This document shows, in pieces, positions 166 through 62,359 of a stretch of DNA of 64,000 nt; the first letter of the stretch is position 1, and every line of letters begins with the position of its first letter. A program made the translations under genes and the position numbers. Source of the DNA: a virus. The stretch is from positions 83,434 through 147,433 of the IMG/VR virus record IMGVR_UViG_3300005098_000017; one strand, given 5' to 3'. A model generated the notes under the pieces. It was not told where the DNA came from. It worked only from the letters and a program-made list of their open reading frames with translations, and did no database searches.

Positions 166-670
166 AATATTAGAGGGACTTGCTAAGTCAGGTAAAGAAT
201 TCGTGAGGCATTTTGGACAGTTCTTGCGTGGTTCACATAATTTAGAGCCGCTGATTGAGTTACCCGCGAAGACATTTAGGAAGCCGCCGCCTCTCCTTCT
301 GTTCAAGAGATCAGCGGGTTTAATAGAAACAAACATCGTTAAACCTAAGTTGGTAAGATCTACGGTAAGGCGGTTGGAATATGCTATGACACAAGATGTA
401 ATTAAGCGGATGCGGCAGAAGCTTAATTATAAGTTTTTGAAGAATAAGGTCGTACCGTTGACCAAAAATGTAAGAAGGGCGCGGCTTCGTACATCTTATA
501 AGCTTATGAGACCCAAACCGACAGGCAGGCATATACGTGATGTGATGTCTATACAAGGTGCAGGTATTGCTTGGGAGAATTTACATAAGCAGTCTTTAAA
601 TAAATTAGAGGTAACAAGGATAGGTTTTAGACCGAGGGTCAGGAAGCAATGGATAGGTTCGATCAGTTAA
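143..670 (+). CDS. Small very basic protein, unknown function
   Basis: This encodes 175 residues from ATG 143; ATG 146 is equally possible, and both follow the purine-rich AGAAGAAGG. It overlaps the preceding gene by 23 bases and the next by 22. Arg and Lys are abundant throughout (for example VRRARLRTSYK and RIGFRPRVRKQW near the C-terminus), with little acidic residue. No enzyme motif is visible. It is the first of four consecutive basic proteins just upstream of the terminase. Similar basic, helical stretches occur at the N-terminus of the giant protein at 26450, so a DNA-associated or virion-internal role is possible but unproven. Confidence 0.65.
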   Translation: MMIKKQIKILEGLAKSGKEFVRHFGQFLRGSHNLEPLIELPAKTFRKPPPLLLFKRSAGLIETNIVKPKLVRSTVRRLEYAMTQDVIKRMRQKLNYKFLKNKVVPLTKNVRRARLRTSYKLMRPKPTGRHIRDVMSIQGAGIAWENLHKQSLNKLEVTRIGFRPRVRKQWIGSIS

Positions 671-1431
671 ATTTATATGCGCAGCAGACTGATGAGTATT
701 TCCTTCCCGAAGATAAATATAGACCATTGCCATGGAGGGTTGCTGCTAGTTATGTAGGTCTTATCAAATCACCTTTTACGGCAAGTATTGGTATTGGTAA
801 GGCCTATGCTACCTTAGCAGGCACATCAATCTTATATCATTATGTGTATCGTCCCAAGATATGGCGTACTGCTGTTAAGACAGGAGAACTTAAGTGGGTT
901 GGTTTCCCGGGCTTCAGAGGATTTGCGCAGGGTCCACGTGGTGGGGTGATGCGCAAGACAGGTCACTGGTTGTTTGGGCAGATGTTGAGACCTGTATTGA
1001 AGACGCAGGCTTATGATCTGTATAGGAAGCGCGGCTTAATGGGTGTTGCCATGTATATGAAGCAGGCTGGTAAGCCGGGTCTAGCGAGAAAGATTTATAA
1101 GGTTGCTCGTGTTTTGGGTGGTGGCAGCATCAAGGTTGGACGTGTTGCTGCAAGCTTGGGTCGTACTGCTGCTTGGGGTATGCTTGCGTATGATGTTGTT
1201 CGTGGTGGTATAGCACTAGCAGGGGCGGCTATGAACCGCGGGCTTCGCATTCTGGATAGAGTGCATACTACATTAGTGCGTCTCAGGAGAAATCAATTAC
1301 CGGAGGCCTATAGGATGCCTCAAGCGGCAACACTAAGGTCGTTGGCATTACAAGAGATTCATACATCACGTACTAATGTAAGAAGTGTTTTACTGGGTAA
1401 TGAGGCAGCTTATATGCATAGGGCATTATGA
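649..1431 (+). CDS. Basic protein with Gly/Ala-rich hydrophobic segments, unknown function
   Basis: This encodes 260 residues from ATG 649, preceded by AGGAAGCA. The start overlaps the previous stop by 22 bases and the end overlaps the next ATG (ATGA). It is basic overall with several Gly/Ala-rich, weakly hydrophobic stretches (around residues 45-65 and 175-205) that could be short amphipathic or membrane-associated helices. No known family was recognised. The composition resembles the N-terminal part of the giant protein encoded at 26450. In large phages, groups of basic proteins like this are sometimes virion-internal, but nothing here proves it. Confidence 0.65.
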   Translation: MDRFDQLNLYAQQTDEYFLPEDKYRPLPWRVAASYVGLIKSPFTASIGIGKAYATLAGTSILYHYVYRPKIWRTAVKTGELKWVGFPGFRGFAQGPRGGVMRKTGHWLFGQMLRPVLKTQAYDLYRKRGLMGVAMYMKQAGKPGLARKIYKVARVLGGGSIKVGRVAASLGRTAAWGMLAYDVVRGGIALAGAAMNRGLRILDRVHTTLVRLRRNQLPEAYRMPQAATLRSLALQEIHTSRTNVRSVLLGNEAAYMHRAL

Positions 1432-1775
1432 GAGCATTACGTAGATTAAGGGAAATATATAATAGGCCGCAGATAGCACCACGGAATGTTTACCATTTTG
1501 TTGATCCTTTAGCTCGTGTCAAACGGTTACGGTTGTGGAGGGGTCGATTAGTTAACAGTCAAGGCAAAAAGGTTGTTAACAAGATTTTGCCGTCTATAAA
1601 GCGCAGGAGGCCGCGGGCTTCAATGGCATTGAGTCGTAAATTACTAAAATTAACCAAACGCAGCTGGATTGGATCGCGGCTTAGTCATTTTATGGTCTCA
1701 AAGGGGCGGCTTCGTAAGTGGGTTGGTGTATTAAATATATTGAAGGATGCTATAAGAATTAGGATGGTAGCATGA
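1428..1775 (+). CDS. Small highly basic protein, unknown function
   Basis: This encodes 115 residues starting at an ATGA junction with the previous gene and ending in an ATGA junction with the next, so translation is probably coupled on both sides. It is extremely rich in Arg and Lys (for example KRRRPRASMALSRKLLKLTK near the middle) and has no acidic clusters or Cys motif. Composition alone suggests nucleic acid contact or a structural role inside the virion. It could also be a small head protein. No family was recognised. Confidence 0.6.
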   Translation: MRALRRLREIYNRPQIAPRNVYHFVDPLARVKRLRLWRGRLVNSQGKKVVNKILPSIKRRRPRASMALSRKLLKLTKRSWIGSRLSHFMVSKGRLRKWVGVLNILKDAIRIRMVA

Positions 1776-2497
1776 CAACTCAGATAATAAAAAGTTTACG
1801 CTCCCAAGTTTTTATACCGCCGTCGTTGCAGGAAATGGAGCATATTGCTACACGTATGCGACATTTTACACAGTTGAAGCAGGCACGTAGCGCGTTCCAG
1901 CGGGCGTGGAGTTTCGCACGCAAGACTGGTTTAGGAGCTGAGTATATTGCATCAGCGCGTCCATATATTTTAGGTAAGTATTGGAAAGCTGTAACTGGAA
2001 TATCAGGTGGTTATAAAGGTAAGGTATGGGCTGAAGAGGTTTTTAAAACGCTGAGTACGCACTATGCTAGGTTTACAAGGGCGCCGTTGACTACAACTGT
2101 GGGTGTGCGTCAGGGACTGCGTACACCATTACTTGTATCGGAGTCGATTTTAGGTAAGCGAGTTATATCATTGAAATCTGTTGCTGGTGCTGCAGCGGCT
2201 TCCCGTGCTGCTGCACAGGCTGGTGCTACAGGTGCTGCGAAGGGAGTAACAAATAGGATAATGAGGAATCGTTTATTGAAGCGTATTGCTCAGGGAACGT
2301 TTAAATTTGCACAGAGCAAAACGGGTGCTTTTACAGCTGCTGTGCTCGGCGGGCTTATAGCATTAACAATTGCTGGTGCAAGTTATGTAAGAAGGAATCC
2401 ATCAGAGGTTGCTTTGGCCCAGCTTAGGCAGCGTAGGGCCACACGTTATCCAAGGGCGCCTTCTGGTTTGGTCTTTGCACTACATGCAACAAGATAA
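1772..2497 (+). CDS. Basic protein with a C-terminal hydrophobic helix, unknown function
   Basis: This encodes 241 residues from an ATGA junction. The first 120 residues are basic and probably helical. An Ala-rich stretch (about 125-155) follows, then a hydrophobic segment near residues 195-215 (FTAAVLGGLIALTIAGASYV) that could span a membrane, with a short basic tail. The basic, helical and single-hydrophobic-segment pattern recurs at the ends of the giant proteins at 26450 and 32281. It stops just before the terminase start. The function is unknown. Confidence 0.65.
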   Translation: MTTQIIKSLRSQVFIPPSLQEMEHIATRMRHFTQLKQARSAFQRAWSFARKTGLGAEYIASARPYILGKYWKAVTGISGGYKGKVWAEEVFKTLSTHYARFTRAPLTTTVGVRQGLRTPLLVSESILGKRVISLKSVAGAAAASRAAAQAGATGAAKGVTNRIMRNRLLKRIAQGTFKFAQSKTGAFTAAVLGGLIALTIAGASYVRRNPSEVALAQLRQRRATRYPRAPSGLVFALHATR

Positions 2498-2498
2498 T

Positions 2499-4955
2499 AT
2501 GGAAGGGAAAAGGTTATCATTAAAAGAGCTGAGTGCTGATGAACTTTTGCGCATACGCAAATCCGCTTCTTACTTTGTTGAATTATTCCTGCGTGATCCA
2601 ACCGATCCGCGCCGGCCTCTAAAACTCTACGATTACCAGCGTGAGGTTTTGGATTATCCCGGTAAGAAGGTTGTTATAAGAGGCGGCCGTGGTGTCAGCA
2701 AAACAACAATGATGGCATGGAAGGCATTACACCGTGCCTTCACAATACCAAGGCATGTTATTATTTATTTAGCACAATCGGAGACGATGCTGCTCAGATT
2801 TTTTACTGATTACCTTGACCGCTTCATTACAGATTCACCTCTAAGTAAATCGAAGGTTGCCTACCGCAAGCAGCCTCAGTATGAGATTGTATTGAGTAAT
2901 GAGTCAAAAATTTTGGGGTTTGTTGGTAATTCTACGCAGACAATCAGAGGCCCGCGGGCTGGTACCATTCTTATTGATGAATGTTTTCACGGTATGACGA
3001 AGGTCTTAACACAGCGCGGGCTTATTCCCATCAGTCGTGTTAGGGATGGTGATTATGTTCTTGATGCTGATAGCAAATGGGTGCGTGTTATCCGCGCTGC
3101 GATGACGGGTGTTAAAGAAATGTGGGTTATTGAGCTACCTATATCAGATGAAAAATTGGTTGTTACACCTGATCACCCTGTTTTAACAAAGGATTCAGGG
3201 TTTCAGCCTCTTAATACGGTTGATGAGATACCGATTAGCTGTCGTTATTATGAGCCTTTTGAGTATCCTAAGGAAGCGGCGCTGGCGCTTATTTATGCAC
3301 GATATATAAGCGAGCGTGAATCACTTGTATTTAATAATGAAGGTGTGCGGCTTATTATGTCTGGTTATCCCAGATTCCGCACATTTTATGAGCGTTTCAC
3401 GGCGGGCAGACATATTAATCCTGTGCTTATTGAGAAGGATTTTATAGACGGAAAAATTGATCAGCGTCTTTTTGTATATTATCTAGCTGCATTTGTTAAT
3501 AGATTTCCTAAGATTGTCATCGATTATCTGACGGGGTTGGGTTATAAGGTTATAGCGGGTTCGCTGGCTAGTGATGATGTACCTAGATATGAAAAGGAGA
3601 TAGGTTTTCCATTTTTTGAGTCAGGATGGTCAACGATTGTAAAATTAGCTGATAAGTTGAACCGTGATCCTGTTGAGTTATATAAGGAGATGAATTGGTA
3701 CAATACAGGCATATTTGTTCCTTATAAGAAGAAATCTACCATTAAGGCGGCGGCTTATAACCTTACTACCGAATCGGGGACTTATTGTGTCTTTATTGGT
3801 GGATTCCGCATTCCTGTTCACAATTGTGATTATATACCTGAGCGTAAGTTTGTAGAGGTATTTGGTACAACAATGTCAATGGAGGATGTTGTTATATGGT
3901 TATCATCCACACCCAGTCCTAAGAGAGGTTACTTTTGGCGTGCATGTAATGATGAACGCATGGGATTCAAGGAGTTTCATTTACCAAGTTGGTTGCATCC
4001 GACATGGACGTGGATGAAGGATGCTGAGAGATTGGGCATACCTATCGAAGAGACAACAGAGTATCAAACTCGTGTTGAGTTTCCTAATCAAGCTGACTGG
4101 TTGCGTGAAATAGCCGCTGAGTTTGTTGATCTTGAGGAGAGCGCTATACCATCAAAATATATAGATGAAGCATTCCAGCATTATGACGGTGAGGTGAGCA
4201 GGAAGCGCGGCTTCCGCATCCTTGGTATCGATTGGAATGCGATGGCAGCAGGGGTTGTTATGGTGTTAGTAGAATACGATAATAAAAATAATGTATTTAG
4301 GGTTATCCATTCAGAAACGATTTCTAATGTTGAATATCATCACCAGAAGGCATTGCAACGTATTGTTGAGATGGTTAAACAATATCGCATTGATGCTATT
4401 GCAGCTGATTGGGGTTATGGAGAAAGTGATATACAGCAGCTCCAGCTTATTGGTAGAGCTAAAGGGATTCGCGCGCTTACTGACATTATGGCCGTAAAGT
4501 TTAATGAGAAGATAAAAATACCGCTTTTCTCTGGTGGTTATGATGAATGTTATGCTAAGGAATACCTTATGCGGTTGGTCAGGAAGTTATTTGAGATGGG
4601 TGCTATCATGCTGCCTCCATCGGAGGATGAAAGGTTGCCTGAAAATTACGCTGATGCTACGAATATGTTGGGATACCAGTTGCGTAATTTGCGTGCTAAG
4701 GTAACAGGGACTGGTCACCTTACCTATGTTGTTGAACCAGACCATAAATTTGCTGCATTTTTAGCTGCTGTCTATGGGTTTTATAGAACATTCCAACCAC
4801 GTATAGACCCGGTGCAGGGGCTTATTATTTATAATGATTTAGAACGGCAAGAACAGAAGTTGGATCATGTTCCTAGTATAACATTACAGCCGAAGAAGAC
4901 ACAGCGGTTTGTCCATAGAGTTACAAATAGGTATAAGCCAATAAGAACTGTATGA
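2499..4955 (+). CDS. terL: Terminase large subunit (DNA packaging ATPase/nuclease), interrupted by an intein
   Basis: This is the motor that cuts and pumps phage DNA into the prohead. With the start at ATG 2499, directly after the previous TAA, Walker A is GGRGVSKT with Lys68 and Walker B is TILIDE ending at Glu161. An intein occupies residues 162-442, and the ATPase resumes at CDYIPER with the coupling motif WLSSTPSP soon after. The RNase H-like nuclease has GIDWN (Asp578), AADWGYGE (Asp637) and a late Asp748 before KFAAFLAAVYGF, the usual three-acid pattern. The extein is about 537 residues, normal for TerL. An in-frame ATG at 2484 and an open frame back to 2409 exist, but neither has a better ribosome site. 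No small terminase was recognised in the window. Confidence 0.93.
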   Translation: MEGKRLSLKELSADELLRIRKSASYFVELFLRDPTDPRRPLKLYDYQREVLDYPGKKVVIRGGRGVSKTTMMAWKALHRAFTIPRHVIIYLAQSETMLLRFFTDYLDRFITDSPLSKSKVAYRKQPQYEIVLSNESKILGFVGNSTQTIRGPRAGTILIDECFHGMTKVLTQRGLIPISRVRDGDYVLDADSKWVRVIRAAMTGVKEMWVIELPISDEKLVVTPDHPVLTKDSGFQPLNTVDEIPISCRYYEPFEYPKEAALALIYARYISERESLVFNNEGVRLIMSGYPRFRTFYERFTAGRHINPVLIEKDFIDGKIDQRLFVYYLAAFVNRFPKIVIDYLTGLGYKVIAGSLASDDVPRYEKEIGFPFFESGWSTIVKLADKLNRDPVELYKEMNWYNTGIFVPYKKKSTIKAAAYNLTTESGTYCVFIGGFRIPVHNCDYIPERKFVEVFGTTMSMEDVVIWLSSTPSPKRGYFWRACNDERMGFKEFHLPSWLHPTWTWMKDAERLGIPIEETTEYQTRVEFPNQADWLREIAAEFVDLEESAIPSKYIDEAFQHYDGEVSRKRGFRILGIDWNAMAAGVVMVLVEYDNKNNVFRVIHSETISNVEYHHQKALQRIVEMVKQYRIDAIAADWGYGESDIQQLQLIGRAKGIRALTDIMAVKFNEKIKIPLFSGGYDECYAKEYLMRLVRKLFEMGAIMLPPSEDERLPENYADATNMLGYQLRNLRAKVTGTGHLTYVVEPDHKFAAFLAAVYGFYRTFQPRIDPVQGLIIYNDLERQEQKLDHVPSITLQPKKTQRFVHRVTNRYKPIRTV
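2982..3824 (+). mobile_element. Intein in the terminase Walker B motif
   Basis: The 281-residue insert begins with Cys (CFHGMTKVLT), follows with the block A-like GLIPISRVRDGDYVLD, has block B as VVTPDHPVLT, and ends with block F/G GTYCVFIGGFRIPVHN followed by a +1 Cys. All residues needed for class 1 splicing (Cys1, TxxH, His-Asn, Cys+1) are visible. Removing it joins LIDE to CDYIPER, restoring Walker B. The middle of about 150 residues is where a homing endonuclease would sit. It contains only LAGLIDADG-like remnants (AALALIYARYIS; FVYYLAAFVNRF) without the catalytic acids, so splicing is likely but homing is probably lost. Confidence 0.9.
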
Positions 4956-6343
4956 AAATATATGTAAGTAACATAAGTGAGGATGATGTTATATCTTATG
5001 AGGGGCGGCGCAACCGTGTGCTTGTAGTTTATGAAGGTGGCCGCAAGGATGTTGTCTATGCTGAGTGTGGTAATGGATTCATTGATGTTGATACTGATAG
5101 GCGTGATATAAAGAAGATCAAGGGTGTGTTAAAGGGCGGGCGCTTAATTGACATTGATGTCCATGCAGACATGTTTGATTTTATACCTGATGTTGTAGAA
5201 AAACCCACCAGAGAGCGCAGACCTGCTGAACCCTTAAGGGTTGAGACACCAGAAACGCTGACGCCCGAGAAGGAGGAAGAACTAAAATTAGAAATGTTGG
5301 GGATTCTTACCAGCATTATCACTGGTTTACAGTATGCGCATAATTTGAAGACGTTAAATGAGGTTGAAAAAGTATTGGATGAGAAGCTTGCCAATTTATG
5401 CGTTAAATTTGACCCATCAGAGCGTCCTATGCTAGTTAAATCGTTGGCTTTTGTTCGCGGGTGTAAGGAAAATCAGGTTGGTAATTGCGCTTATGTTGAG
5501 GATTTTAATAGAGCAATGAATATTATTAATGCCGCGCCTATATTATTAACAGGTACGAACCCTTTATTAATACCTGCTAGTGAAAAGGTTCCTCGTTATA
5601 AACTACCGGCGGGGCTTCCTCCGAACATCATAGCACGTAAGGATTTTTATAGGCAGTTAACAGTTGACAGAGATGTATCGACGAGTGCTATTGAGGATTT
5701 AAGGAGCGTTCAGCTTATTGATGTATGGCGTATTATGATCCTTAAGGCTAGTATTGAGTTTTTGAAATTATTGCGTAGCATATTTAGTGTTCTAAGCAAG
5801 GTACCGGGGTTAAAAGCGATTCCTCGTACGCTTGATCGATGGATTGAGGATTTAGGTAAACAGTTATCGCATTATGTGGATCCTCAAGGTAATGTGTATG
5901 TAGGTAATGAAGGATATACCCCGCCATTATCTGTAATACTGGATGAAGAAACTGATTATAGTGATGAGGATATAGACGATGCAGTAAGTGAATATGAACA
6001 ATTTAAGGGTGAGCTTAACAAGGGTGTTGCGGGTATAGGTGGTGTTGAATCTTCTAATGCCTTAACATATGCTAATACCATTATTAAATTTTTTGCAGCT
6101 GAGTTCCCCAAGCAGTATCCTGATAAGATGCATTTGTTAACAGCAAAGTATTATTTACCGCAAGCCAAGGATAAGGTTATGGCGGCAATTGGTACTGATT
6201 GGATGCACTTATGTACCCCTGAGAGGAAGGCTATAATGCGTGAGATTGAAGCGGATCCGCGGCTTAACTTTTACTGGGGTACTCTTATTAACCGTTTGGA
6301 ATCCGAGGAAGGTGTTCATTGGGTGATGGGAGAGAATGGCTAA
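4952..6343 (+). CDS. Unknown phage protein between terminase and portal
   Basis: This encodes 463 residues from an ATGA junction with terL. The N-terminal 75 residues look like a small beta-rich domain (KIYVSNISEDDVISYEGR onward). A charged, Pro-containing linker (about 75-105) follows, then a mainly helical region. The segment near residues 330-350 is very acidic (DEETDYSDEDIDDAVSEYE). No catalytic motif was recognised. Its place between terminase and portal is usual for head-packaging genes, so a portal-associated or head-filling role is possible. The end overlaps the next gene by 8 bases. Confidence 0.75.
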   Translation: MKIYVSNISEDDVISYEGRRNRVLVVYEGGRKDVVYAECGNGFIDVDTDRRDIKKIKGVLKGGRLIDIDVHADMFDFIPDVVEKPTRERRPAEPLRVETPETLTPEKEEELKLEMLGILTSIITGLQYAHNLKTLNEVEKVLDEKLANLCVKFDPSERPMLVKSLAFVRGCKENQVGNCAYVEDFNRAMNIINAAPILLTGTNPLLIPASEKVPRYKLPAGLPPNIIARKDFYRQLTVDRDVSTSAIEDLRSVQLIDVWRIMILKASIEFLKLLRSIFSVLSKVPGLKAIPRTLDRWIEDLGKQLSHYVDPQGNVYVGNEGYTPPLSVILDEETDYSDEDIDDAVSEYEQFKGELNKGVAGIGGVESSNALTYANTIIKFFAAEFPKQYPDKMHLLTAKYYLPQAKDKVMAAIGTDWMHLCTPERKAIMREIEADPRLNFYWGTLINRLESEEGVHWVMGENG

Positions 6344-8189
6344 ACTTAGTGAAATATTAGCGGATGTTGAGGGCTATGTTTCGTCTCATTACCCTGAATA
6401 CATGAATTTTATAAATGATAGATCTGTTGAATATGCTAGGGTATCTGAGTCTGAAAGAGATCGTTGGTGGAATTTTTGGTATAGTGCGATACGTTCATCT
6501 ACTGAGTATGTATGCGAGAGTATTTGGCGGGATGCTGAAAATGATGTAGGGTTAACGTATGTTATTTTTGTACGGGATGTTGTTGTAGATTTATTAGAGG
6601 AACGATTTAGGGGTAATGATGTGTATATAAACTCGATAATAACCGATATAGCTGGTGAATCATCATATATTTATGCTGTGAGGGAGGGTACGGCTGGTGA
6701 AGATGAGCGTGGTAGCGAGGATGAGGCAGAAGAAGGTGATATACAATCTAAGATTTTAAATCTGATTGAGTCAGTAGATTGGCGGGCGCTTAGCGTTGCT
6801 TATGAAGAGGATAAAGGATTTCATCTACGTGCGTTGGGTACTTATCATCTTGAGATGTTATCCCGTCCTGATACATTTATAAATCAAGTGTGGAAAGAAT
6901 ACCGTTCATGGGCAAGAGAGAATGGTTTATCACTAGATGTTACGCATACCAATATTAGGGCATTTTTGGCGGCTAGGTGGGGGCTTCATTATCCAACAGA
7001 TGCAGATGTAAAGGTTGATGAAGGGCGTATGGTTACGGTTACGGTTGCCCGTCCCGGTGAACCTTTTGCAATAGGTCTTGGGTTTGATGATTCATGGAAT
7101 ATTATAAAGGAGGATATGCAGCACATATGGAATTCGTTTGTTAGACGTTATGATGTCCTCAAATCATTTGATTGGAAAACCTATTTTATGAAGCAAGTGC
7201 AGGATATCGTTGATCATTTTGTTCATATAATTGATGTTGATCCTATTTATATGGCATGTTGTCTTTTGGATACGGGTTTAACATTGGAGAGATATCTGAA
7301 TCCAAGGCTTCTAGGAGCTATAGGACGTATTCTTGAGATCTTGACATACTCGCCTTATATAGGATTGTCATTTGGGTTTGATTTCATGAAGGCAATAAAT
7401 GCTACATTAAGTTTCATGATACGATCCGGTTGGATAATATTTTTGAAATTTACTGTTTTTAATGCTGTTTCCAGCATTTGGTATAAGATTGATAGATTTT
7501 TGTATGAGTTGGGGACTTGTATTACAGGGCCGGGCATAAATAGGGATTGGTGTAAGGGTTGGATGGCTTTTTTGAGGTGTGTCCCGCTTATGGATTTTTT
7601 GTATTTCCTATATAATAAGCTTACAGGTATAAAGAATAGTATACTAGCATTTTATTTTAACTTATTAGATGATTTGAAATTTCGGGAATGGCATTTTTTG
7701 GAACATTTAAGGGGTATAACACGCAATGCTATTAATATTAACATAATTAATAATTGGCGTACTTATTTTAATAAATTATTAACAATAGCTGATGCATTAG
7801 CATTGTGTATATCATCAGCTGATGTGCAGGATTACAAGGGTCGGTTCAGACAATATAGAGAGCCTATTATACCACCGCCGGGTGGTATACCGGAGGATGA
7901 AGAGCATATCCATACGTCGGGACGTATACCTAGTGAGCACCATGATGTTGCCAGACAGAGGAGTCGGCGTTCATCATTTTATTATAGTCCTGTTGGTATA
8001 AGCGCTGATGATATGGTAAATATGCCTGTAGACAGCGTTATTGCTACAGTTGTACCAAATGAATTGTATAGAAGACTTGTGGAATGGTATAATTTTGTGC
8101 AAGAACACGTTCATACAGAAAGTAAGGATGAATGTGATCGCCGGTTGATAACCGGCTTGTTTAAGCTAATGGAGGACTTGTATGAATAG
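6336..8189 (+). CDS. Unknown phage protein upstream of portal
   Basis: This encodes 617 residues from ATG 6336, with GGGAGAG as a reasonable ribosome site. The first half is soluble and charged with an acidic patch near residues 120-140 (EDERGSEDEAEEGD). The middle (about 330-450) is rich in Phe, Trp, Tyr and Leu and could include membrane-associated or buried helices. It contains several Cys (GTCITGPGINRDWCKGW). The C-terminal part has a Pro/His-rich linker (IIPPPGGIPEDEEHIH). No family was recognised. It overlaps the portal gene by 8 bases and is probably co-translated with it, suggesting a portal or neck-related structural role. Confidence 0.75.
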   Translation: MAKLSEILADVEGYVSSHYPEYMNFINDRSVEYARVSESERDRWWNFWYSAIRSSTEYVCESIWRDAENDVGLTYVIFVRDVVVDLLEERFRGNDVYINSIITDIAGESSYIYAVREGTAGEDERGSEDEAEEGDIQSKILNLIESVDWRALSVAYEEDKGFHLRALGTYHLEMLSRPDTFINQVWKEYRSWARENGLSLDVTHTNIRAFLAARWGLHYPTDADVKVDEGRMVTVTVARPGEPFAIGLGFDDSWNIIKEDMQHIWNSFVRRYDVLKSFDWKTYFMKQVQDIVDHFVHIIDVDPIYMACCLLDTGLTLERYLNPRLLGAIGRILEILTYSPYIGLSFGFDFMKAINATLSFMIRSGWIIFLKFTVFNAVSSIWYKIDRFLYELGTCITGPGINRDWCKGWMAFLRCVPLMDFLYFLYNKLTGIKNSILAFYFNLLDDLKFREWHFLEHLRGITRNAININIINNWRTYFNKLLTIADALALCISSADVQDYKGRFRQYREPIIPPPGGIPEDEEHIHTSGRIPSEHHDVARQRSRRSSFYYSPVGISADDMVNMPVDSVIATVVPNELYRRLVEWYNFVQEHVHTESKDECDRRLITGLFKLMEDLYE

Positions 8190-14712: not shown

Positions 14713-14768
14713 GGCCCGGTCTTCTAGCTCGTTAGACATTGTGATTCTTGTGGCTAGAAGGCCGGGCT
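14713..14768 (+). terminator. Long hairpin after the major capsid gene, no U-tract
   Basis: Ten bases after the capsid stop, GGCCCGGTCTTCTAGC (14713-14728) pairs with GCTAGAAGGCCGGGCT (14753-14768). There are 14 Watson-Crick pairs and two G-T pairs, with a 24-base loop. There is no T-run after it; instead CTTCCTATAGGAGG leads into the next ribosome site. It may protect the 3' end of the capsid message, act as an RNase III site, or slow transcription, rather than being a classical terminator. Confidence 0.6.
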
Positions 14769-14786
14769 TCCTATAGGAGGACTATT

Positions 14787-21105: not shown

Positions 21106-21339
21106 ATGAAAGATGTGAAGATATACATTGATGATGGTATTTTATATGTGGAATTTCATGAGTTCTACGATCGGGCCGATATATTGATTTATGATGTGAA
21201 GGGCCGGCTTATTCATGAAGGGACTGCGGCCGGCTTAAGCGTCTATACATATGACATGTCTCGTTATGCAAGTGGTCCTTACATTGTTGTTATTTTGGTT
21301 AGTGGTAGAAAATATAGTAAGGTAGTCACATTGCATTAG
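21106..21339 (+). CDS. Small stand-alone beta-sandwich protein resembling a T9SS sorting / FlgD-Ig domain
   Basis: The product is 77 residues from ATG 21106 (upstream TTG 21088 lies in the terminator's T-run). The sequence ADILIYDVKGRLIHEG, then YTYDMSRYASGPYIVVIL and a Lys-Val-Val-Thr-Leu end follows the pattern of the C-terminal T9SS sorting domain and the related FlgD Ig-like fold: 'V.IYD..GR', 'D.S.y..G.Y.v', then a final strand. Here the domain is the whole protein with no passenger. It follows a terminator, with only a weak ribosome site (TTGAG), so expression is expected to be low or read-through. It could be a small tail decoration or a host-mimicking piece. Confidence 0.65.
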   Translation: MKDVKIYIDDGILYVEFHEFYDRADILIYDVKGRLIHEGTAAGLSVYTYDMSRYASGPYIVVILVSGRKYSKVVTLH

Positions 21340-25417: not shown

Positions 25418-26095
25418 ATGGATCCCAAAGAGTATAAACAGCAGCATGGTGTTGATATTTTTGCGGTTGGTTGTAATGTTCTGAAAAATACTTATAAGGC
25501 ATATTTTCCTATTATGTCTGTTGCTGATCTTACGACTGATGTTATGTATAATGACCCTGCGCGGGTTCATCTATTAAATGTTGTCCGTAACCTTGTTGAA
25601 AAGATAAGTTTAGGAACGATGACTGATGATGATTTGGTTGCTGTCATGGGTGGTTGCATTCATCTCGAAAAGAATATGCAACCTATTGATCCGATGTCTG
25701 TAGAGAATGCTATAGCTAAGCTCTTAGCTGAACGGTGGATTACTGCGATGGGCTTCTTTGATACACCGCGGGTTTATGTTGCTGAGGTGGATGGGCAAAC
25801 ATGCGATGTTGTTGAAACTGTTTATGCAGGTAAGGTTTACAAAATTTATCTAAAGCCTATATCAGGTGACAATGATCCTCGTATTGAGCATGTGTTGAAG
25901 GTCTTGGGTAGAGAGTATACGATTGATCAGACATATGATGTATTTAGAAGCTCGGTTGTGAAGGTTGAAGCCGCGCCCTTTGGGCAGCTATCGTTTGAGG
26001 ATGTTGAACTTAATGATAAAGTGCTGTTTGCAAGTGCTGTTATGGCGTGGATTGAGAATACAGGTAGCATTGAATATGATTACGAAATTATATAA
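25418..26095 (+). CDS. Probable tail assembly chaperone
   Basis: This encodes 225 residues after a 27-base gap with the ribosome site AGGGGTGG. It is an ordinary soluble, slightly acidic protein with no recognised motif. Together with the next short gene (its stop overlaps that ATG, TAATG) it occupies the usual place of the paired tail assembly chaperones, between tail tube and the long tape-measure-type gene. No clear slippery sequence for a programmed frameshift was found at the junction, so the two are probably separate products. The call rests on order and size. Confidence 0.6.
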   Translation: MDPKEYKQQHGVDIFAVGCNVLKNTYKAYFPIMSVADLTTDVMYNDPARVHLLNVVRNLVEKISLGTMTDDDLVAVMGGCIHLEKNMQPIDPMSVENAIAKLLAERWITAMGFFDTPRVYVAEVDGQTCDVVETVYAGKVYKIYLKPISGDNDPRIEHVLKVLGREYTIDQTYDVFRSSVVKVEAAPFGQLSFEDVELNDKVLFASAVMAWIENTGSIEYDYEII

Positions 26096-44868: not shown

Positions 44869-47800
44869 TGCCAGAGGATAGAACAAATATTGTCTCCGAT
44901 CCAAGCTCTAAGCCTACTGGAGATGGGAAGACTAAAGATAAGGGTTATGGGATGTTGCCTCTAACGGCTAATTTATTTTTAGATGATATGCTTCAATTTA
45001 CGAATGAAGCATTTCCTCTTGCATCTGCGATGTCTATATTGAGTGGTGATTATCATTTTATTGTGCGTAATTGGACGACGGCTTACCCAGATAGGTATAT
45101 ACCTGACAGGATTTTAAATAAGAGGGGGTCGACGCCTCTATTCTACTATGATAGTGATATAGGAATTAACAATAAAGTTATACGTGCTCTTGTTAATGAG
45201 ACTCGGTATCAGGCTAATATGATTCTTAATCAGTTGGCGGCGTTTACTAATATGCCGGAGGATCTTATTGAATCTATTAAGCAGCAATTAAAGAAATTTT
45301 ATGGACCTGAGGCCGCCAATAAGTTTGAAAATGAAATTAAAAAACATACTTACGGGAAGAAGTTAGATTTAAAGGAATACAGGAAGTTTCTTGAACAATT
45401 TAAAGAGCTTTATTTAGATGATTCGCGGCTTCAATACCTGCTTGATTCATCGGATAAGCAGACAAGCAAGTTGTTAGGTGGCTTGGATGCGCGGCTTGGT
45501 CTATTATCATGGTTAAATGTCCGCAATTACGCGCGCTTATATATTAAGCTTTTGGAGCTCAAGGAGATATTGGAGCAGATTGGAAAGGGAGAGGGAGCCG
45601 TGCCTCCTGATGCTGATGCGCTTAATCTTATAAAGGCGATGATAATAGCTAAGTACAAGGTTGATAATCCAAAGGCATCAGAAGCAGATATATCAGCTAA
45701 GGCTGCTGAGATAGATGCTGCTTTTGGTGATGAAGCAAAGTTAGCACAAGTGTTGACAAAATATGGTAAGGAGCTCGCTGACATATATAGTTCATATGAT
45801 AAATTAAGTAAGTTTGTTGATAAGCTTATTAATGTTTGGACAAAGGATCCATTTTTTAGCGGGTTGTTATCGGCGTATAGGGCAGAGAATAGAAGTATCA
45901 CTGAAATTTTATGGTTGGCAAGGGATATTGCCCATGTTGATGCCGTGTTTGCGGCTAAAAATGTAGAAGATGCTGTGAATACCTATTTCCAGCATTCCCT
46001 TATGGTGGGTCCTAAAGAATTTGAAACACAGTTAGATATTTTATACCGCATTCTGGTTACGTATCCTCTAGAGGTTGCCTATAAAGTGAACCGAATTTAT
46101 CCAACATTCAGGATTTTCCTTGTTCATCCGGGTACGGGGCTTATTTACTCATTCAGAGACTTTTATTCACCAAAGGCTGTTGAGAGTATTGATATTTATA
46201 GAGACAAGTTAGGCACGGCAGATGTATGTCGTATAACGGTTTCCAATCGGGGTGGTCAGTTTGTAACAGATCTTCCAGCATTTCTTGAGCCACATGATAT
46301 TATTGATGCAGGGGGTGCAAGGACACCTCTTATGTTAAAGCCCGGCATGTATCTTATTGTGAAATTAGGCTATGCTAATTTGGAAAATGATCTTAGGACT
46401 AGGTTTATAGGGCGCATAACAGATGTACAGATGCAGGAAGGGCGCATTGTTGTTATGGCACAAGGTCTCGGTACTCAGTTGTTGATGGTACCCGGGCAGG
46501 ATGAGGATCATAAGGGTGAGATTAAAGTCAAAGATGGCGGAATATTAAGGTTATTGGGGTTTGGTTCTATTATAAGTAGTTATGGGGCGCTTATTGCTCA
46601 TTTATTATTACAGACGCGCGGGCTTGGTGATCTAGGTCGCCGTGTGAGTTTGTTCCGTAGGTGGGAGCTAGGGTATCGTGGTGCTGTTTATAAAACGCAT
46701 CGTGGTCCTGTTATGTTTGCATTATCTAATGTATTGAATCGTTTTCTACATAATACAGCACACCTTTTACCATCTTTTGCCAAGAAGGTCGTTGGTGTCT
46801 TTAAATATTCGCCATTATATTATCTGTTGCCTAAGCGGACGCGTGATAATATAGACAAAATGGTTGATGCCTTACCTTTATTGCCCACGATCATGGATTC
46901 ATATCGCCATTACCGGGATGTGACACATAATATTGGTGCGCTTATGGAAAATATTTATATCGATGCTGGTGTTGGTGGAGCTAGTACATACACGGGGCTA
47001 GGAAAATATGCATGGGATATACTAGCTCAATATTTTAGAAGCATATTTGGTGGTATTGGACGTGGGCGTTCGGCTGAAGACATTCAATCGCAGCAGAGAC
47101 CTATTAATAGTGAGGTTGTTCCATGGGGTATTGAATACTATACTCGTGCAAAGTCCTTGTATGATTGCTTGAAGGAAGTAGCATGGTTCTTCCCCGGATA
47201 TATTTTATATACACCGTTTTATAATGAGGATTTTGTGTATAGTGCGCGGGCCACTATATTTATAGGTCAGAAGACATTTTATTACAGATACAGAGATGAT
47301 TTATATTCAAGGGTTGAGGATGGTCCTGTTATTAAGAAAGCATTATTGGAAATCATTGATGATGCGATACAGAATATAGGTAAATTAAAGAAAGTTGACT
47401 GGGTTTATCGTTATGGGCAATTGTTTTATCTATTTCCTGATATAAATTCCATCTTGGGCAAGTACAGCTCTTCACGTATGAGGTCATCGCCGACAACACA
47501 GCCAGGGAAACTTCCCGGTTATTTAGATTTAGTTTCTGGCGGTCGTGCACATGCTGTTCCACAAACAGTAACAGAAAATAAAGGTGATATAACTGGGGAG
47601 GAGTTTAGGGTTCAATTGCAGGATCTTAGGACTCTTATCGAAACAGAGGGTGAATCATTACATAAAACGGGGAAGAACATCTTCCACTTAAAGTTCTTGT
47701 TTAGACCTGAAAATTATTCTCCCGATGTTTATAACTATGTATTATCGATGAAGCCAGAGATTGCGTTGCATATGGTATCAGCGCGCCCGCTTCAAAAAAC

Positions 47801-51041: not shown

Positions 51042-53398
51042 GAGCTGTAATTTCTAAGTATAGAGGTTTAGTATCTGATAGCGTAATGCGCAGAGCATTT
51101 CCGCCGTGGGTATATGTCGAACCCGGCGGGCCTCTCTACACGCTTATTGGCACACTATTATCCCTTGCTGAATCATATGCAAGGTATGCCCGCTATTTAC
51201 GTCGTAATGATCCATTAAAATCATCATTGCAAGATTTAGTTAATTTGTATTATAAAGCAGTACCTGAAAAGCCTGAATTCTGTAATGTTCGTGTTGGTGA
51301 CAATGTATTTAAGATAGCTGTTACGGATGACCACATAGAATTTCTGGGAGCTGATGTAGGATATATTGCACCTGTGGGTGTAATAAGGGTACCGGAAGGG
51401 GTACAAGATTTTATTATTTACAGAAAGGATATGGAGCTTTACCTTGATGTTGTGACATCAAGTGAGCATTATTCGACTAAGTATCCCTTTGAGGTATTTA
51501 AGAAAATGTCTCCGTTTATAGCGGGGACTGTGGTGAAGCGCGGGCTTATCATCACTCCTAAATACACAACCTATACCAAACTTGATACCTTTGAGGAATC
51601 AAAGTCCGATCCTTATTTTACTATCACAAAGAAGATTAAAGTTATTGACCCGTTTCATAAAAGAGATGGAATTTCATTATCATGGGTTCTTAATGATGGT
51701 GAGGTTATAGAGCATAATTTAGTTGACCCAGCAACATATGAAGCCGCGCCGCTTACTGTTTCTAACTTTATGTTTCCTTATACAGATGACATTACTCCTT
51801 ACAAGTTCCGCATTGAATTTGATAATGGTATAGTCCAGTTGTATAATCCTGTTTCACCGTTTTATATAATTTATGAATATGGATCACCAACACCATATAT
51901 ATCGTTTAATCAGTCATATGATTACATCCAAGAGGAAATGGTAACAGATTATCCTGATGAGGTTATTTCTGATGGTACTACGGGGGACATGCATCTTGAG
52001 GGAAATCATATGGTTGTTGATGTTACATTGAATAATATGGTATCGAGTTGTGATCTCTTAGTAGCGCGGCTTATTTCCCATGCTTATCTGGGTGACCCCG
52101 ATGGAATAGAACCAAATGAATCTGATGATGAAGGTCACTATTATAAATTTACTTTCAATCCAGAGCCTTCCGATCCTTATGAATATGGTAATGGGGAAAA
52201 CGATAGAGGCCTATTACTTGAGGTTATTTTACAGCGTGCAGAAGCAAGAGTTGATCTGCATGATGCATCGATGACTGATGTAGTTACGTTTCCTGCTGGT
52301 ACTGATTTAAAGGATTATTTTACGGTCTCACATGAAGGGTTAGCTATATCCATAAAGCCTAACGGGGCACTACTTGAGACAGCTGAGTATGGAACCAGCG
52401 ACTTTAAGTTTGCATTTACATTTAAGTATGTATTAATATATACAGTAGAAGGTAGTGTGCCGACTGTGGGGCGCTTGCAGTACCTTGATGAGGTTATAAA
52501 TTGGGAGGATCCTAATGCATGGGTGATTGGTCCTATGACAGCATATATTGATCATGTTCCTGAGGGTTATGGCGAGCGCTTCATTTTCACTGGTGGGTTA
52601 ACGGACTATAAGGTTGTATTGCAAGCGGATGTGCATGAGTATGATCCATCGCATCCCGATATACCTGGACCTGTATTATATGCGAGTGGTACTGATATAA
52701 CAGACCTTGTTGAACTGGAGGTATGCGAGGATTATATGCGGTTTGTGCCCAAGATAGAGTTATCATTTAATGGTTTTGAATTCCGAAACTTAAGTGCAAC
52801 AGTACCACCTATAAGGGTGCAGGGTACATTGCGTATTGAAACTTTGAACTTTTATACACTTACACCAACTCCAGAGAACACAGTATACATGTCATTATCA
52901 TTATATCCATTTGCAGACAGGACAAAGAATGCGATTTTAAGTAAATATAGTAGATTTACATCGAATGTAAAGATTACGAGTGTAAGGGTTTATAACTTTC
53001 TTGAATATATTGATAATGTTCTTATTGAGGACGATATTACAGTTCAGGCATTGGGGCCGGTGCGGGCTTATGTGTTAAAGGCATATCCGACGCGCCTGTT
53101 TTTATATTACATGGGGACCAATGATGTAGAATATAGAGATTTTGATAGTAGCATTAGTAGTATTACCCACTTTGATGGATATATTTTTATTGCACTTGAT
53201 GATGGTATTTATGCATATGATTTATATGCTGCTGAGGTAACAAAACTGAGTGATGTTGTAGCTGATAGGATACGTATCGGTCCTGATAACAAGTTATATA
53301 TTCTTAAGGGTTCAAGAATCACAGTATGTGAGTTAGTAAGAAATAGAGCTTTTTATAATGGTGCAGAGATAGTATCATTTTATCCTATTGTAGAATAA
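51038..53398 (+). CDS. Large baseplate/tail protein (wedge or fibre attachment)
   Basis: This encodes 786 residues from an ATGA junction with J. The N-terminal 130 residues contain a helical segment (YTLIGTLLSLAESYARYARY) followed by beta structure. The rest is mostly beta-rich with many Asp, Tyr and Pro residues, as in fibre-attachment proteins. The last 100 residues look like a small beta-propeller-like blade pair (FDGYIFIALDDGIYAYDLYA, then PDNKLYILKGSRITVCEL). In other phages the protein after J is often a tail protein I-type wedge. No sure family is visible. Confidence 0.65.
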   Translation: MRAVISKYRGLVSDSVMRRAFPPWVYVEPGGPLYTLIGTLLSLAESYARYARYLRRNDPLKSSLQDLVNLYYKAVPEKPEFCNVRVGDNVFKIAVTDDHIEFLGADVGYIAPVGVIRVPEGVQDFIIYRKDMELYLDVVTSSEHYSTKYPFEVFKKMSPFIAGTVVKRGLIITPKYTTYTKLDTFEESKSDPYFTITKKIKVIDPFHKRDGISLSWVLNDGEVIEHNLVDPATYEAAPLTVSNFMFPYTDDITPYKFRIEFDNGIVQLYNPVSPFYIIYEYGSPTPYISFNQSYDYIQEEMVTDYPDEVISDGTTGDMHLEGNHMVVDVTLNNMVSSCDLLVARLISHAYLGDPDGIEPNESDDEGHYYKFTFNPEPSDPYEYGNGENDRGLLLEVILQRAEARVDLHDASMTDVVTFPAGTDLKDYFTVSHEGLAISIKPNGALLETAEYGTSDFKFAFTFKYVLIYTVEGSVPTVGRLQYLDEVINWEDPNAWVIGPMTAYIDHVPEGYGERFIFTGGLTDYKVVLQADVHEYDPSHPDIPGPVLYASGTDITDLVELEVCEDYMRFVPKIELSFNGFEFRNLSATVPPIRVQGTLRIETLNFYTLTPTPENTVYMSLSLYPFADRTKNAILSKYSRFTSNVKITSVRVYNFLEYIDNVLIEDDITVQALGPVRAYVLKAYPTRLFLYYMGTNDVEYRDFDSSISSITHFDGYIFIALDDGIYAYDLYAAEVTKLSDVVADRIRIGPDNKLYILKGSRITVCELVRNRAFYNGAEIVSFYPIVE

Positions 53399-53399
53399 T

Positions 53400-55025
53400 A
53401 TGAGAAGTGCTGGTTATTTAAATATAGCGGCTTATTTTGATGCGGTACCAAATAGGGAGCTACAACAAGCAGAGATATCATACTTGTGGAGGCGTATTGG
53501 TGGTGCGCCTCTGACGCTTCATTATATGTCGCTGAATCGCATATTAATGGCGTTCTTGATGAAGGATTTTGATGTTATTAATTACCGTTTTCCATTTAGA
53601 GTTGATAGATTATCATTATTTGCTTATAGGAAAAGGGGTAAAGATTGGAAATATAAAGTATATGAGGATATTGAAGCCGCCGCCTCCCTTATAGATAAAT
53701 ATGAAGAGGGCGATGACTATCCATTCTTTCCCGTAAGGACCGAGAATTCATACATGATTGTACCTTATCCGGGGTATGAGATCCTTTATATCGGTGATAA
53801 TGGTCAAGAACTTTTTGAAGCGCCGGCTCCATCGACGAATAGGTTGGTTTATTCAGCATTGTATTGGGCCTTGTTATATGCTGATGATTATGGGTATTTA
53901 CCTAAATCAATTGAGGAGCATATTATTAATTGTTTGTTAAAGAGACCAACGACGATGGCGGGCTTCGAACCTTATGCTTATGACGTGGCTGAATATGATG
54001 TTAATATGGGTTCCTATCCTCTTATGACTGGAGCCCGTGTTGCGTATCCTGATAAGGATTTTAATATTGATACATCTAAGCCGGCGCCCGGCTTATGCTT
54101 CGGTCTGGAGGTGGATGACATAGAGGTTGATGCTGAGGATTATCGTTTTGTTATGACCGACGGCGGCTTCATCATAGGCGGCCGCTTCCTACACACAGGA
54201 TTATATGATGTTTATGTTTATGATATTTCTAAATATGAATGGGACGATGGAGAAGGTACATGGATACCAGTCGGGCCATATGAGGAGCCAATAGATCTGA
54301 AATTATCAGTCCCTCTTTCGTTTCCTCATCTTATTTTTGCTTTTGAGAAACCATATATGTTTTCTCACCACTATGTTCGTATTGATCCGGCGCCCGGTGA
54401 TAGCTTTGAAGTGCCATTTATGGATCCTCCGTTGCCTTATTCGTTGGAGGGGGCTTATACGCCTTATTCCGGATCATATCACGATGCCATGTACGGTAAT
54501 CCAACTGTTTTAGATGAGCATCTTTTGAAGTGTGTCGATCTGGATCATCCTAAGCGTTATAGTTATTCGATCCTTGATGTAGATCTTATTAGGATTCATC
54601 ATTGTGGATACAGGACATACATTTATATATTTATTCTGCGGCATGATGAGCTACAAAAGTTAAATAAAAGCGTTGATAGTGTTAAATATGATGTTTTGGA
54701 TGGATTAACATTAGGGGTTGTTGGTATTGATGATGACTTTTCAGATACTACCATAGAGATTAAAGGTAATCCTGATCCGTTATATTTGTCGTCTAGTTAT
54801 GAGTGGTTGACATTAAAGGTAAAGAAGGATGGTGTGTTTTTAGATGCTGTTGTTGTTAAAGCATATGATGATTCAGATAGCCGTATTGTAATGCATCATG
54901 CCAATCTTGCTCCTGATTACGGTGCATCTGATGTCTATCCTATTATGACAACATGGTTTGGGTATGCTTTAGTAGGTGTTGAGGATAGTTCACGTATTGA
55001 TCATTTTGTGGTTGAAAAGATTTAA
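53400..55025 (+). CDS. Tail fibre or baseplate-associated protein
   Basis: This encodes 541 residues starting one base after the previous TAA. It is rich in Tyr, Asp and Pro with mostly beta character and few helices. Little resembles an enzyme. Position after baseplate wedge genes and before the 1039-residue fibre-like gene suggests an adaptor or fibre segment. No repeats were recognised. Confidence 0.62.
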   Translation: MRSAGYLNIAAYFDAVPNRELQQAEISYLWRRIGGAPLTLHYMSLNRILMAFLMKDFDVINYRFPFRVDRLSLFAYRKRGKDWKYKVYEDIEAAASLIDKYEEGDDYPFFPVRTENSYMIVPYPGYEILYIGDNGQELFEAPAPSTNRLVYSALYWALLYADDYGYLPKSIEEHIINCLLKRPTTMAGFEPYAYDVAEYDVNMGSYPLMTGARVAYPDKDFNIDTSKPAPGLCFGLEVDDIEVDAEDYRFVMTDGGFIIGGRFLHTGLYDVYVYDISKYEWDDGEGTWIPVGPYEEPIDLKLSVPLSFPHLIFAFEKPYMFSHHYVRIDPAPGDSFEVPFMDPPLPYSLEGAYTPYSGSYHDAMYGNPTVLDEHLLKCVDLDHPKRYSYSILDVDLIRIHHCGYRTYIYIFILRHDELQKLNKSVDSVKYDVLDGLTLGVVGIDDDFSDTTIEIKGNPDPLYLSSSYEWLTLKVKKDGVFLDAVVVKAYDDSDSRIVMHHANLAPDYGASDVYPIMTTWFGYALVGVEDSSRIDHFVVEKI

Positions 55026-55039: not shown

Positions 55040-55056
55040 AATATTGGAGGATTAAC

Positions 55057-59225: not shown

Positions 59226-59637
59226 TATTGGCGAAACAGCCATTATACCGGTTTTATTTTTTGATGAATCATATAGTTTGATGGATCCTGTTGAATTGGA
59301 AGGGGAGTATGTTACCCTTACAGTATATCGTCTTGATGCGGCACCGTCTGTAGCAAAGTTCATTGATGATTTTAAATGGATACATACAGGAGCTGTGGGC
59401 TTATATGATCTGGAGGTTGTTGTTGAAGAAAATATATTAAGTGGTGGAGACTATTATATCGGAGCAACGAGATATGATGTGGGTATTTATGCATTGAAGG
59501 TTAAGCCGCGGCTTCCCGGTACTTATTATATCGTTGTAGAGGCTCATGCATCTGGCCTTGCTAGTGAATGTGTTTTACAAACCTTTACTGTAAGATTCAT
59601 AGAGAAGAGAGATCCATCATTATTATCAATGGAATGA
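59218..59637 (+). CDS. Small beta-sandwich protein (first of a tandem set)
   Basis: The start is set at ATG 59218, directly after GGAGAGGAGGG; an upstream ATG 59191 in the same frame has no comparable site. The product has 139 residues and overlaps the previous stop by 8 bases. The pattern SIGETAIIPVLFFDESYSLM, then EYVTLTVYRLDA and LPGTYYIVVEAHASG with a final strand is typical of Ig/macroglobulin-type domains in surface and fibre proteins. It begins three short genes of similar size. A fibre-chain adaptor is likely, but this is inference. Confidence 0.62.
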   Translation: MYSIGETAIIPVLFFDESYSLMDPVELEGEYVTLTVYRLDAAPSVAKFIDDFKWIHTGAVGLYDLEVVVEENILSGGDYYIGATRYDVGIYALKVKPRLPGTYYIVVEAHASGLASECVLQTFTVRFIEKRDPSLLSME

Positions 59638-60765: not shown

Positions 60766-61949
60766 GTCTAGGAACAACTGATATAGATCGGACGATCGAT
60801 ATCCTATTAGAGTTGCGTGATGCGCTTCAACAGCTATCTAAGTGTGAGAAGCGCAAGCTATTAGAATCATATACTGATTTTGGTGGTTATCCATCTGATT
60901 TCAAGGAGCTTGTTGCCTTATTAACAAAAGTCGAGGCGTATGTTGAACTAATTGAGCAACGTTATCCTGCATTTAAACAGTTCATCGATGATGTTCTTCG
61001 GTCACTTTATGATGTAAGACATCTTACATCTAGTGCTGTTTTTTCCTATATAGATGGTATTAATATTGACTATTACCCAGCACCTCATCTATCATCTGTA
61101 ACTGAAGAGGTTGATGTTAATGACATAGATATTAATGTTGTACCTTATACAGAGGATATCGAAGTTGGTGAGCATTTTATTGCATGTAGTCTTGAGCGTC
61201 AGGATAACATACAGAAGATTATATTATCTTTTAAATCTCCTATAAAGGCAACACGGATATGGATGCCGATTTTTGGTGCTAAGGTTAAGAGGTTACTTAT
61301 TAATACAGTAAGCGCGGGCTTCGATTACTGGTATGGATACATTGTGCCAATCCATAGGGTTATTAATGCTGATGATAAGGTGACTATTATTGTTGAGATG
61401 ATGATGAAGCCGCGCTTTGAGGCTGTTAAAAAGCCGGCTGATGTGTGGAAACTATATAAAAAGCCTACTTGGATTGGAGACACGGTTATCTTGAAGCCGC
61501 GCTTGGTATTAGATATATCATCAGGCGCGGGGCTTCTTGAAACGACAACATTACCAATGGTATTCGGCGACAATGGTAGTATCGTGCCGTTTGTCAAGGT
61601 GAATGGAATTTATTTCCCTGCGATTGGTCGTGAATATAGTGGATTACCATTTCCATTTCACTATGATGGGCGGTATTATTATTTCCCTATTTATACATCT
61701 GGTGATTTCACATCTAGTACGCCTCTTATGGGATATCGTACTGAGTACAGGTTATTTAAATCATCATCGCTTCCGGAGTTATCATATGAGGTCGATTTTT
61801 CAGGTTTTACACACTGGGTTTTTTGGAATCCTTGGAAAAATAAAATTGAGGCATATCCTTCGGAGGGATTGTTTGCTATACCTCATCTTGAGAGCGAGCT
61901 GATTATGATGCCGCCTCCTCCGACGGAATTGCCAGAGGAGCATGAATAG
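60738..61949 (+). CDS. Probable fibre-attachment protein
   Basis: This encodes 403 residues from ATG 60738, with GGAGG eleven bases upstream. The N-terminal 95 residues are helical (TIDILLELRDALQQLSKCEK, then VEAYVELIEQRYPAFKQF) and could form a coiled coil for oligomerisation. The rest is beta-rich, with aromatic residues. Helical start and beta remainder is common in fibre proteins that trimerise. No enzyme motif was seen. Confidence 0.6.
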   Translation: MSLRLFERLGLGTTDIDRTIDILLELRDALQQLSKCEKRKLLESYTDFGGYPSDFKELVALLTKVEAYVELIEQRYPAFKQFIDDVLRSLYDVRHLTSSAVFSYIDGINIDYYPAPHLSSVTEEVDVNDIDINVVPYTEDIEVGEHFIACSLERQDNIQKIILSFKSPIKATRIWMPIFGAKVKRLLINTVSAGFDYWYGYIVPIHRVINADDKVTIIVEMMMKPRFEAVKKPADVWKLYKKPTWIGDTVILKPRLVLDISSGAGLLETTTLPMVFGDNGSIVPFVKVNGIYFPAIGREYSGLPFPFHYDGRYYYFPIYTSGDFTSSTPLMGYRTEYRLFKSSSLPELSYEVDFSGFTHWVFWNPWKNKIEAYPSEGLFAIPHLESELIMMPPPPTELPEEHE

Positions 61950-61957
61950 AGGCTAAA

Positions 61958-62359
61958 ATGGCAATAGATATTGAATATAGAACATATGAACCACATGAGA
62001 TACCACGTGATATCAGTCCTATATGGGTCGCGCCCCATATTGGCGACTTCGATGCTTATAGTATTTATAACTATTATTTATCCTATGTTGTTGAGAAGGT
62101 TTTGAGGCTACCATATATTGATATTAAGGATGAGGTAGTACAACAGGGGCCGGGCTTATTCATCCCCGGTAAATATATCTTCCGTATCAAGCGTTTTATT
62201 GCTGATGATGCGGTGCCAATTTACAGATTAAGAAAGGGCATTATTTATGTTTATGAGGAGATTAATAATATTCAAGTTTTAGAGGCTATTGTTTTGGATG
62301 AGCTTAAGTATGCGGCGGGCTTAATCAATGATGGAACATTTGGACCTTATATAAAATGA
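61958..62359 (+). CDS. Small fibre/baseplate-region protein, unknown function
   Basis: This encodes 133 residues starting eight bases after the previous stop. It is a compact alpha/beta protein with many Tyr and Ile (PGLFIPGKYIFRIKRFIADD). An ATGA junction couples it to the next gene. No family was recognised. Position in the fibre region suggests a structural role. Confidence 0.58.
   Translation: MAIDIEYRTYEPHEIPRDISPIWVAPHIGDFDAYSIYNYYLSYVVEKVLRLPYIDIKDEVVQQGPGLFIPGKYIFRIKRFIADDAVPIYRLRKGIIYVYEEINNIQVLEAIVLDELKYAAGLINDGTFGPYIK

Follow-up and report, generated by a model that had tools for sequence, protein, structure and literature searches.

A dispersed, two-sided DNA site with a G/C core in a contractile-tailed phage: putative binding sites of a DNA-organising protein

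The IMG/VR virus record IMGVR_UViG_3300005098_000017, a viral contig of 147,433 bases, carries a densely dispersed short DNA site, here called the box, which is described from the final 64 kb of the record (bases 83434-147433, 64,000 nucleotides, hereafter the window), from the remainder of the contig and from related strains. The GC-rich words GCGGGCTTA and GGCGGCTTC are the halves of this symmetric, degenerate site, RAR-S(7-8)-YTY (S = G or C), with KGAAG-SSSSSS-CTTCM as its best form; a block of seven or eight G/C letters has two or three purines before it and two or three pyrimidines after it, 13-16 bp in all. Judging from the genes of the window, which include terminase, portal, head, sheath and baseplate, the record is a large contractile-tailed phage. 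The boxes are putative binding sites of a probably dimeric DNA-organising protein of the phage or its host, a reading to which a probability of roughly 0.48 is assigned. The first-pass annotation of the window had reported a directional word family between positions 485 and 62330; the words are indeed there, but the feature spans the whole virus record, and it is not mainly directional, its unit being two-sided (purines, G/C core, pyrimidines), with GGCTT[AC] as one half.

The excess of the word family over composition and codon use is large. The + strand of the window has 41 copies of GCSSGCTTM and the - strand 9; GGCTTM is found there 115 and 37 times, and GCGGGCTT 23 times and never, respectively. 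For the whole record and both strands, an order-3 Markov model predicts 1.7 copies of CGCGGCTTC, 1.3 of GCGGGCTTA and 1.3 of GGCGGGCTT, whereas 48, 29 and 33 are present, and the top words of the record reach 12-30 times the model expectation; GCGGGCTTA read backwards has 0 occurrences in the record. The excess also survives a synonymous-codon shuffle that keeps the proteins, the codon counts and the dinucleotides at codon junctions (the codon null): GCSSGCTTM occurs 85 times in sense against 3.5 ± 1.7 and 34 times in antisense against 4.5 ± 2.1, KAAG-S4..9-CTTM 53 times against 1.2 ± 1.0, and the forms with strong flanks exceed the null 15-45 times. Much of the first-pass description is borne out by these counts, including the examples at 37381, about 38950 and 29462, the estimate of over 30 words in 26450-39342 (GGCTT[AC], 32 on the + strand and 10 on the - strand), the use of all three codon phases (site centres split 88/75/81) and the statement that codon preference is insufficient to account for the family. 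Record-wide, strong ribosome-binding words (the AGGAGGT family) are over-represented as well.

The two-sided nature of the site was recognised because many matches of CGCGGCTTC overlap on opposite strands, giving the palindrome GAAGCCGCGGCTTC, whose flank-flipped counterpart is TTCGCCGCGGCGAA. The preferred form is KAAG-S6-CTTM, in which AA and TT lie about 10 bp, or one helix turn, apart, with a tolerance of 7-10 G/C letters between them; KAAG-Sn-CTTM was found 0, 4, 12, 24, 6, 6 and 3 times for n = 3 to 9, whereas the control pairs AAC..GTT, TTC..GAA and ATC..GAT gave 0, 1 and 1 over the same range. An expectation-maximisation matrix yielded R-R-R, six or seven S positions (0.91-0.95 G+C) and Y-Y-Y whether left free or forced to be symmetric, with little preference between G and C in the core, apart from a preferred alternating C-G or G-C step at its centre. 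Specificity resides in the flanks: A-S7..11-T was found 203 times against 45 expected and T-S7..11-A 34 times against 42, and, with all-G/C cores, AA-N8-TT occurs 44 times, AA-N8-AA 3 times and TT-N8-AA not at all, so that the excess is gone once the flanks are flipped (T..A for A..T). Tests for an AA/TT repeat of about 10 bp running over several turns were negative both outside the box and by autocorrelation, and no 10-bp phasing between sites was clear of chance; a nucleosome- or histone-type positioning pattern was therefore rejected, since no 10-bp repeats occur outside the box.

Counted as the excess over the codon null, the number of sites reaches a plateau at 320-333 as the threshold falls from 7 to 4 bits (in a genome of ~176 kb, the relative of 175,796 bases), with little excess for an A/T-exchanged matrix over the same thresholds. 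The density is one site per about 530 bases and the spacing is near random (coefficient of variation 0.93-1.0). Sites lie within genes, in sense and antisense, and between genes; gene starts are not enriched (9.6 against 15.3 per 10 kb) and placement along genes is uniform. The densest boxes are found outside the window in the gene for an ATP-dependent DNA ligase (record 41727-43703, or L011:1727-3703), with 11 in 2 kb, and five lie within the 1.2 kb of a TnpB/Cas12f1-like transposase gene (L011:18512-19756, where L011:1727 is record 41727). Two head-region genes (record 95410-96609 and 106817-108823) hold 0 and 1 boxes, respectively.

Comparison of strains showed that silent change is suppressed within the sites. 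Between the two longest strains, 37 of 606 third codon positions in sites differ (6.1%), as against 107 of 592 (18.1%) in low-score G/C runs of at least 6 letters (p=1.3e-10), a site in just one of the two strains having been enough for inclusion, a choice that would, if it had any effect, bias against a lower divergence of sites. Shorter low-score runs diverge at about 17-24%. The difference was reproduced in one further strain (10/159, 6.3%, against 34/131, 26.0%; p=5e-6) and in another (11/163, 6.7%, against 23/141, 16.3%; p=0.01). A generic slow evolution of G/C runs was rejected because equally long low-score runs evolve at the normal rate. Boxes occupy aligned positions in both strains; they vary through substitutions, indels being almost absent, and the insertion of mobile GC elements was rejected on the latter ground. 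DNA that only one strain has contains sites as well, though they are somewhat sparser there (15 in 10.4 kb against 262 in 131 kb). The preferred interpretation of these sequence comparisons is that the sites are kept by purifying selection, even at silent positions. The DNA-level signal supposed in the first-pass annotation is supported in that the family stands far above composition and codon use, occurs in all phases and behaves as under selection, with third positions in sites diverging three-fold less than in G/C runs lacking the flanks.

The site family appears particular to this phage lineage among the viruses examined. In 21 other viral loci below 47% G+C, most of them fetched for holding one site word, sites occur at 3.6 per 10 kb against 3.4 for a control with swapped flanks, whereas the same measure gives 21.2 against 2.8 in the phage lineage. 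Two 14-base scans of viral contigs showed, among the matches listed, enrichment only in this lineage, and site enrichment is absent from two contigs with distant relatives of PhoH. No report of such a dispersed site family in a phage was found in a literature search of incomplete coverage, and we are aware of no phage in which a selected DNA site is dispersed at comparable density.

How might such a family work? A symmetric DNA-binding protein, dimeric or two-armed, would contact the two flanks about one turn apart. It would read the local shape of the DNA set by the A-rich purine and T-rich pyrimidine flanks, the exact letters of the G/C block mattering little, and would be loaded at hundreds of places along the phage DNA. 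Its role would be architectural, i.e. coating, looping, condensing or partitioning the phage DNA, rather than the control of individual genes; this role is favoured because of the number of sites, their random spacing and their spread through genes. Of the roles listed in the first-pass annotation, a protein-binding site is the best option, whereas the site's symmetry, its degenerate core and its weak polarity make Chi-like sites and signals of packaging polarity less likely. Several points weigh against a DNA-organising protein. Among the matches listed in the Pfam and PHROG scans there is no histone, HU, Alba or ParB family; a core length of 7-10 is unusual for one rigid dimer; the partial coding-strand bias described below poorly fits a purely symmetric site; a mutational or repair bias could create and protect such sites; and site-specific protective repair would look the same as selection. 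A candidate DNA binder is encoded outside the window (record 45725-45934, or L011:5725-5934): a tiny and extremely basic protein in which a short middle is framed by two basic arms, these being kept in the relative G002. This protein and a second small basic one (record 18462-18803) are no more than leads to the binder. It is also conceivable, though doubtful, that the sites form a virus-wide 'architectural code', in which hundreds of degenerate, shape-read sites laid over genes, at a cost in codon choice, would recruit a chromatin-like protein encoded by the phage for organising, shielding or packaging its DNA.

The main rival, in itself improbable, is a motif like HIP1 of cyanobacteria, in which a methyltransferase or repair enzyme of the phage or host acts on A/T-flanked G/C blocks and biases substitutions so as to keep them, with no architectural role. 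HIP1 is a similarly dense palindrome and is linked to methyltransferases (PMC6604393). The phage has a match to a DNA methyltransferase family (phrog_3816), and biased repair could also yield the low divergence of sites. Methyltransferases, however, usually read fixed letters, unlike a core of any G/C letters with a length of 7-10, and the protection does not extend to flankless G/C runs of the same length.

An orientation-dependent, one-strand signal of the Chi or replication type, read by a RecBCD/AddAB-type enzyme, a primase or terminase, is less probable again. Genome-wide, GCTTM half-sites are biased to the coding strand (234:137, about 1.7:1); the right arm favours the forward orientation strongly (126:51) and the stretch at 50-78 kb of the record the backward one (22:55), with a switch near 78 kb, and the phage encodes both RecA/UvsX-like and Holliday-junction resolvase proteins. 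The unit itself, however, is symmetric and degenerate, half-site polarity is lacking at 6.5-50 kb, and full sites are weakly polar, the stronger half lying 3' on the coding strand in 57% against 46% in a shuffled null (p=0.001). The switch also coincides with that in gene direction: most genes at 50-78 kb run backward too, and polarity as a replication signal is confounded, an origin-related component being inseparable from gene direction because both switch at about the same place. Gene direction and GC skew switch together near 78 kb of the record. The earlier impression of directionality arose because one half-site was counted where nearly all genes run one way. The accompanying remark on a clearly rarer reverse complement is true of half-sites in the window but not at 6.5-50 kb, where there is no bias, or at 50-78 kb, where the bias is reversed in + coordinates.

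An RNA-level signal, with the sites acting as short hairpins or pausing elements in transcripts, was also among the roles first proposed and is very unlikely. A modest coding-strand bias is consistent with it, and a near-palindrome could fold, native sites having a slight stability advantage over core-shuffled controls (mean z -0.5). A hairpin in RNA or DNA was rejected because the core letters do not mirror each other outside the central C-G or G-C step and the outer letters K and M show no covariation (p=1.0); positions 2 and 7 of the 8-base core pair no more than expected. Sites also occur in sense, antisense and intergenic DNA. Finally, a compositional by-product, i.e. G/C-rich patches arising from codon usage, a recent exchange of genes or strand skew, is hardly credible: an AT-rich window (40.5% G+C) with a strong G skew does make G/C words conspicuous, but composition and codon use are rejected by the Markov and the synonymous, junction-preserving nulls, the latter giving 15-45 times fewer strong forms, and are further contradicted by the lack of enrichment of the T..A-flanked control, the lack of excess in other AT-rich viral contigs and the lower third-position divergence in sites.

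Several known systems resemble the boxes in part. Chi is asymmetric, polar and made of fixed letters; the phage sites share with it short over-represented words with some strand bias, but they are symmetric, degenerate and weakly polar rather than one asymmetric fixed word. The GC clusters of yeast mitochondrial DNA are likewise short G/C-rich elements in AT-rich DNA, but these are longer mobile elements, whereas the phage sites are 13-16 bp long, aligned in both strains and almost free of indels. The sites of SlmA and MatP and the KorB operator are also symmetric, scattered and about 13-16 bp long, and these, like the ParB/Noc NBS sites, use fixed letters and occur at much lower density. The NBS sites bound by Noc are dispersed around the Bacillus subtilis chromosome (PMC4331003, PMC8429893). 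The phage boxes share with ParB/Noc-type systems a symmetric site scattered over the replicon, but they are degenerate and denser, and no ParB-family gene is among the Pfam/PHROG matches listed. HIP1 (GCGATCGC) occurs about once per 1131 bp in Synechocystis 6803 and is held to be selected, its function being unsettled (PMC6604393). Both HIP1 and the box are dispersed palindromic words far above expectation (for the box, that of the composition and codon nulls), and both show signs of selection, the 6.1% against 18.1% third-position divergence of the phage sites being replicated, with biased repair as a possible cause. They differ in that HIP1 is the fixed octamer GCGATCGC around a methylated GATC in cellular genomes, a fixed sequence that RAR-S7-YTY does not have, whereas the phage site has a degenerate, length-variable G/C core with required A-rich purine and T-rich pyrimidine flanks, and occurs at about twice the density. 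On this comparison HIP1 appears the closest known counterpart, from which the box is set apart by its degenerate, length-tolerant core, its required flanks and its phage setting.

If the sites are under selection, the virus would pay for a genome-wide non-coding signal with a coding cost, visible in the reduced change at third positions. Should a phage protein read them, the boxes would be the readable site list of a phage system that organises the genome or resembles chromatin; should a host protein do so, the list would help to identify the host. Why highly iterated palindromes exist has been open since HIP1, and the phage offers a small genome for testing it.

Boxes are spread over the whole window, with 107 of at least 9 bits (277-63951), of which 55 reach at least 12 bits; scores are in bits with the symmetric matrix, and the strand is given as '.'. 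Examples from the first part of the window are TAGGAAGCCGCCGCCTCTCC (277-296, 18.5 bits), AAGAAGGGCGCGGCTTCGTA, which opens the range reported in the first pass (472-491, 16.4 bits), TATGAACCGCGGGCTTCGCA (1230-1249, 15.0 bits), CAGGAGGCCGCGGGCTTCAA (1604-1623, 17.0 bits), ATTAAGGCGGCGGCTTATAA (3741-3760, 14.3 bits), CTAGAAGGCCGGGCTTCCTA (14754-14773, 16.6 bits), TGAGAGGGCGCGGCCTCTTG (20064-20083, 17.4 bits), TGTGAAGGGCCGGCTTATTC (21195-21214, 14.8 bits) and GTTGAAGCCGCGCCCTTTGG (25964-25983, 15.4 bits). These are followed by ATGGAAGCCGGCGGCTACAT (29179-29198, 15.0 bits), GCGGGGCCGGCGGCTTCCGC, which holds the example at 29462 (29450-29469, 16.4 bits), GCGAAGGCGGCGGCTTCAGC (31156-31175, 16.5 bits), TCAGGGGGCGCGGCTTCGAA (32408-32427, 14.9 bits), AAAGAGGCGCGGGCTTCAGA (32473-32492, 16.8 bits), AGTTAGGCCGCGGCTTACCT (34655-34674, 15.4 bits) and TTGGAAGCCGCCGGCTTCTC, with two full half-sites (37459-37478, 16.6 bits). 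Further along lie GAGGAGGCCGCGGGCCCAGA (43402-43421, 17.3 bits), GGTGAAGCGCGGGCTTATCA (51532-51551, 15.3 bits), ATTGAAGCCGCCGCCTCCCT (53670-53689, 17.9 bits), TTTGAAGCGCCGGCTCCATC (53814-53833, 16.8 bits), GGTTAAGCCGCGGCTTCCCG, again with two full half-sites (59499-59518, 16.7 bits), and CAGTAAGCGCGGGCTTCGAT (61306-61325, 14.5 bits).

The rest of the record encodes a family-B DNA polymerase, a RecA/UvsX-like protein, ribonucleotide reductase, ThyX, PhoH, a ligase and a TnpB-type transposase. Endolysin and GroES matches are also present in the phage genome, and for this reason its sequence suggests a bacterial host. The close relatives are IMG/VR contigs, the longest of 175,796 bases, which match at 92-99% over most aligned blocks and lower in variable parts; one of them comes from sample 3300014911, a metagenome of hydrothermal sediment in the Guaymas Basin (PMC6478937). 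An INPHARED search gave no near relative of the phage, and no relative was found for the capsid and TnpB proteins in 84,980 GTDB species genomes with the patterns used. Four very large consecutive open reading frames (ORFs) of 1943, 2353, 1797 and 1337 aa occupy window positions 26450-48881 and possibly encode virion-borne or tail-associated giant proteins; the first (1943 aa), the only one of the four searched, had no PHROG match. Immediately upstream of the terminase gene, very basic proteins of 175, 260, 115 and 241 aa are encoded in a row (window 143-2497, record 83576-85930); PHROG searches with the 175- and 260-aa proteins were negative, and between strains the 115-aa protein keeps 95-97% identity. 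The ORF that precedes the portal gene (window 6336-8189) is strongly strain-variable, with 617 against about 704 aa and 54-69% identity, whereas its neighbours are at 95-99%.

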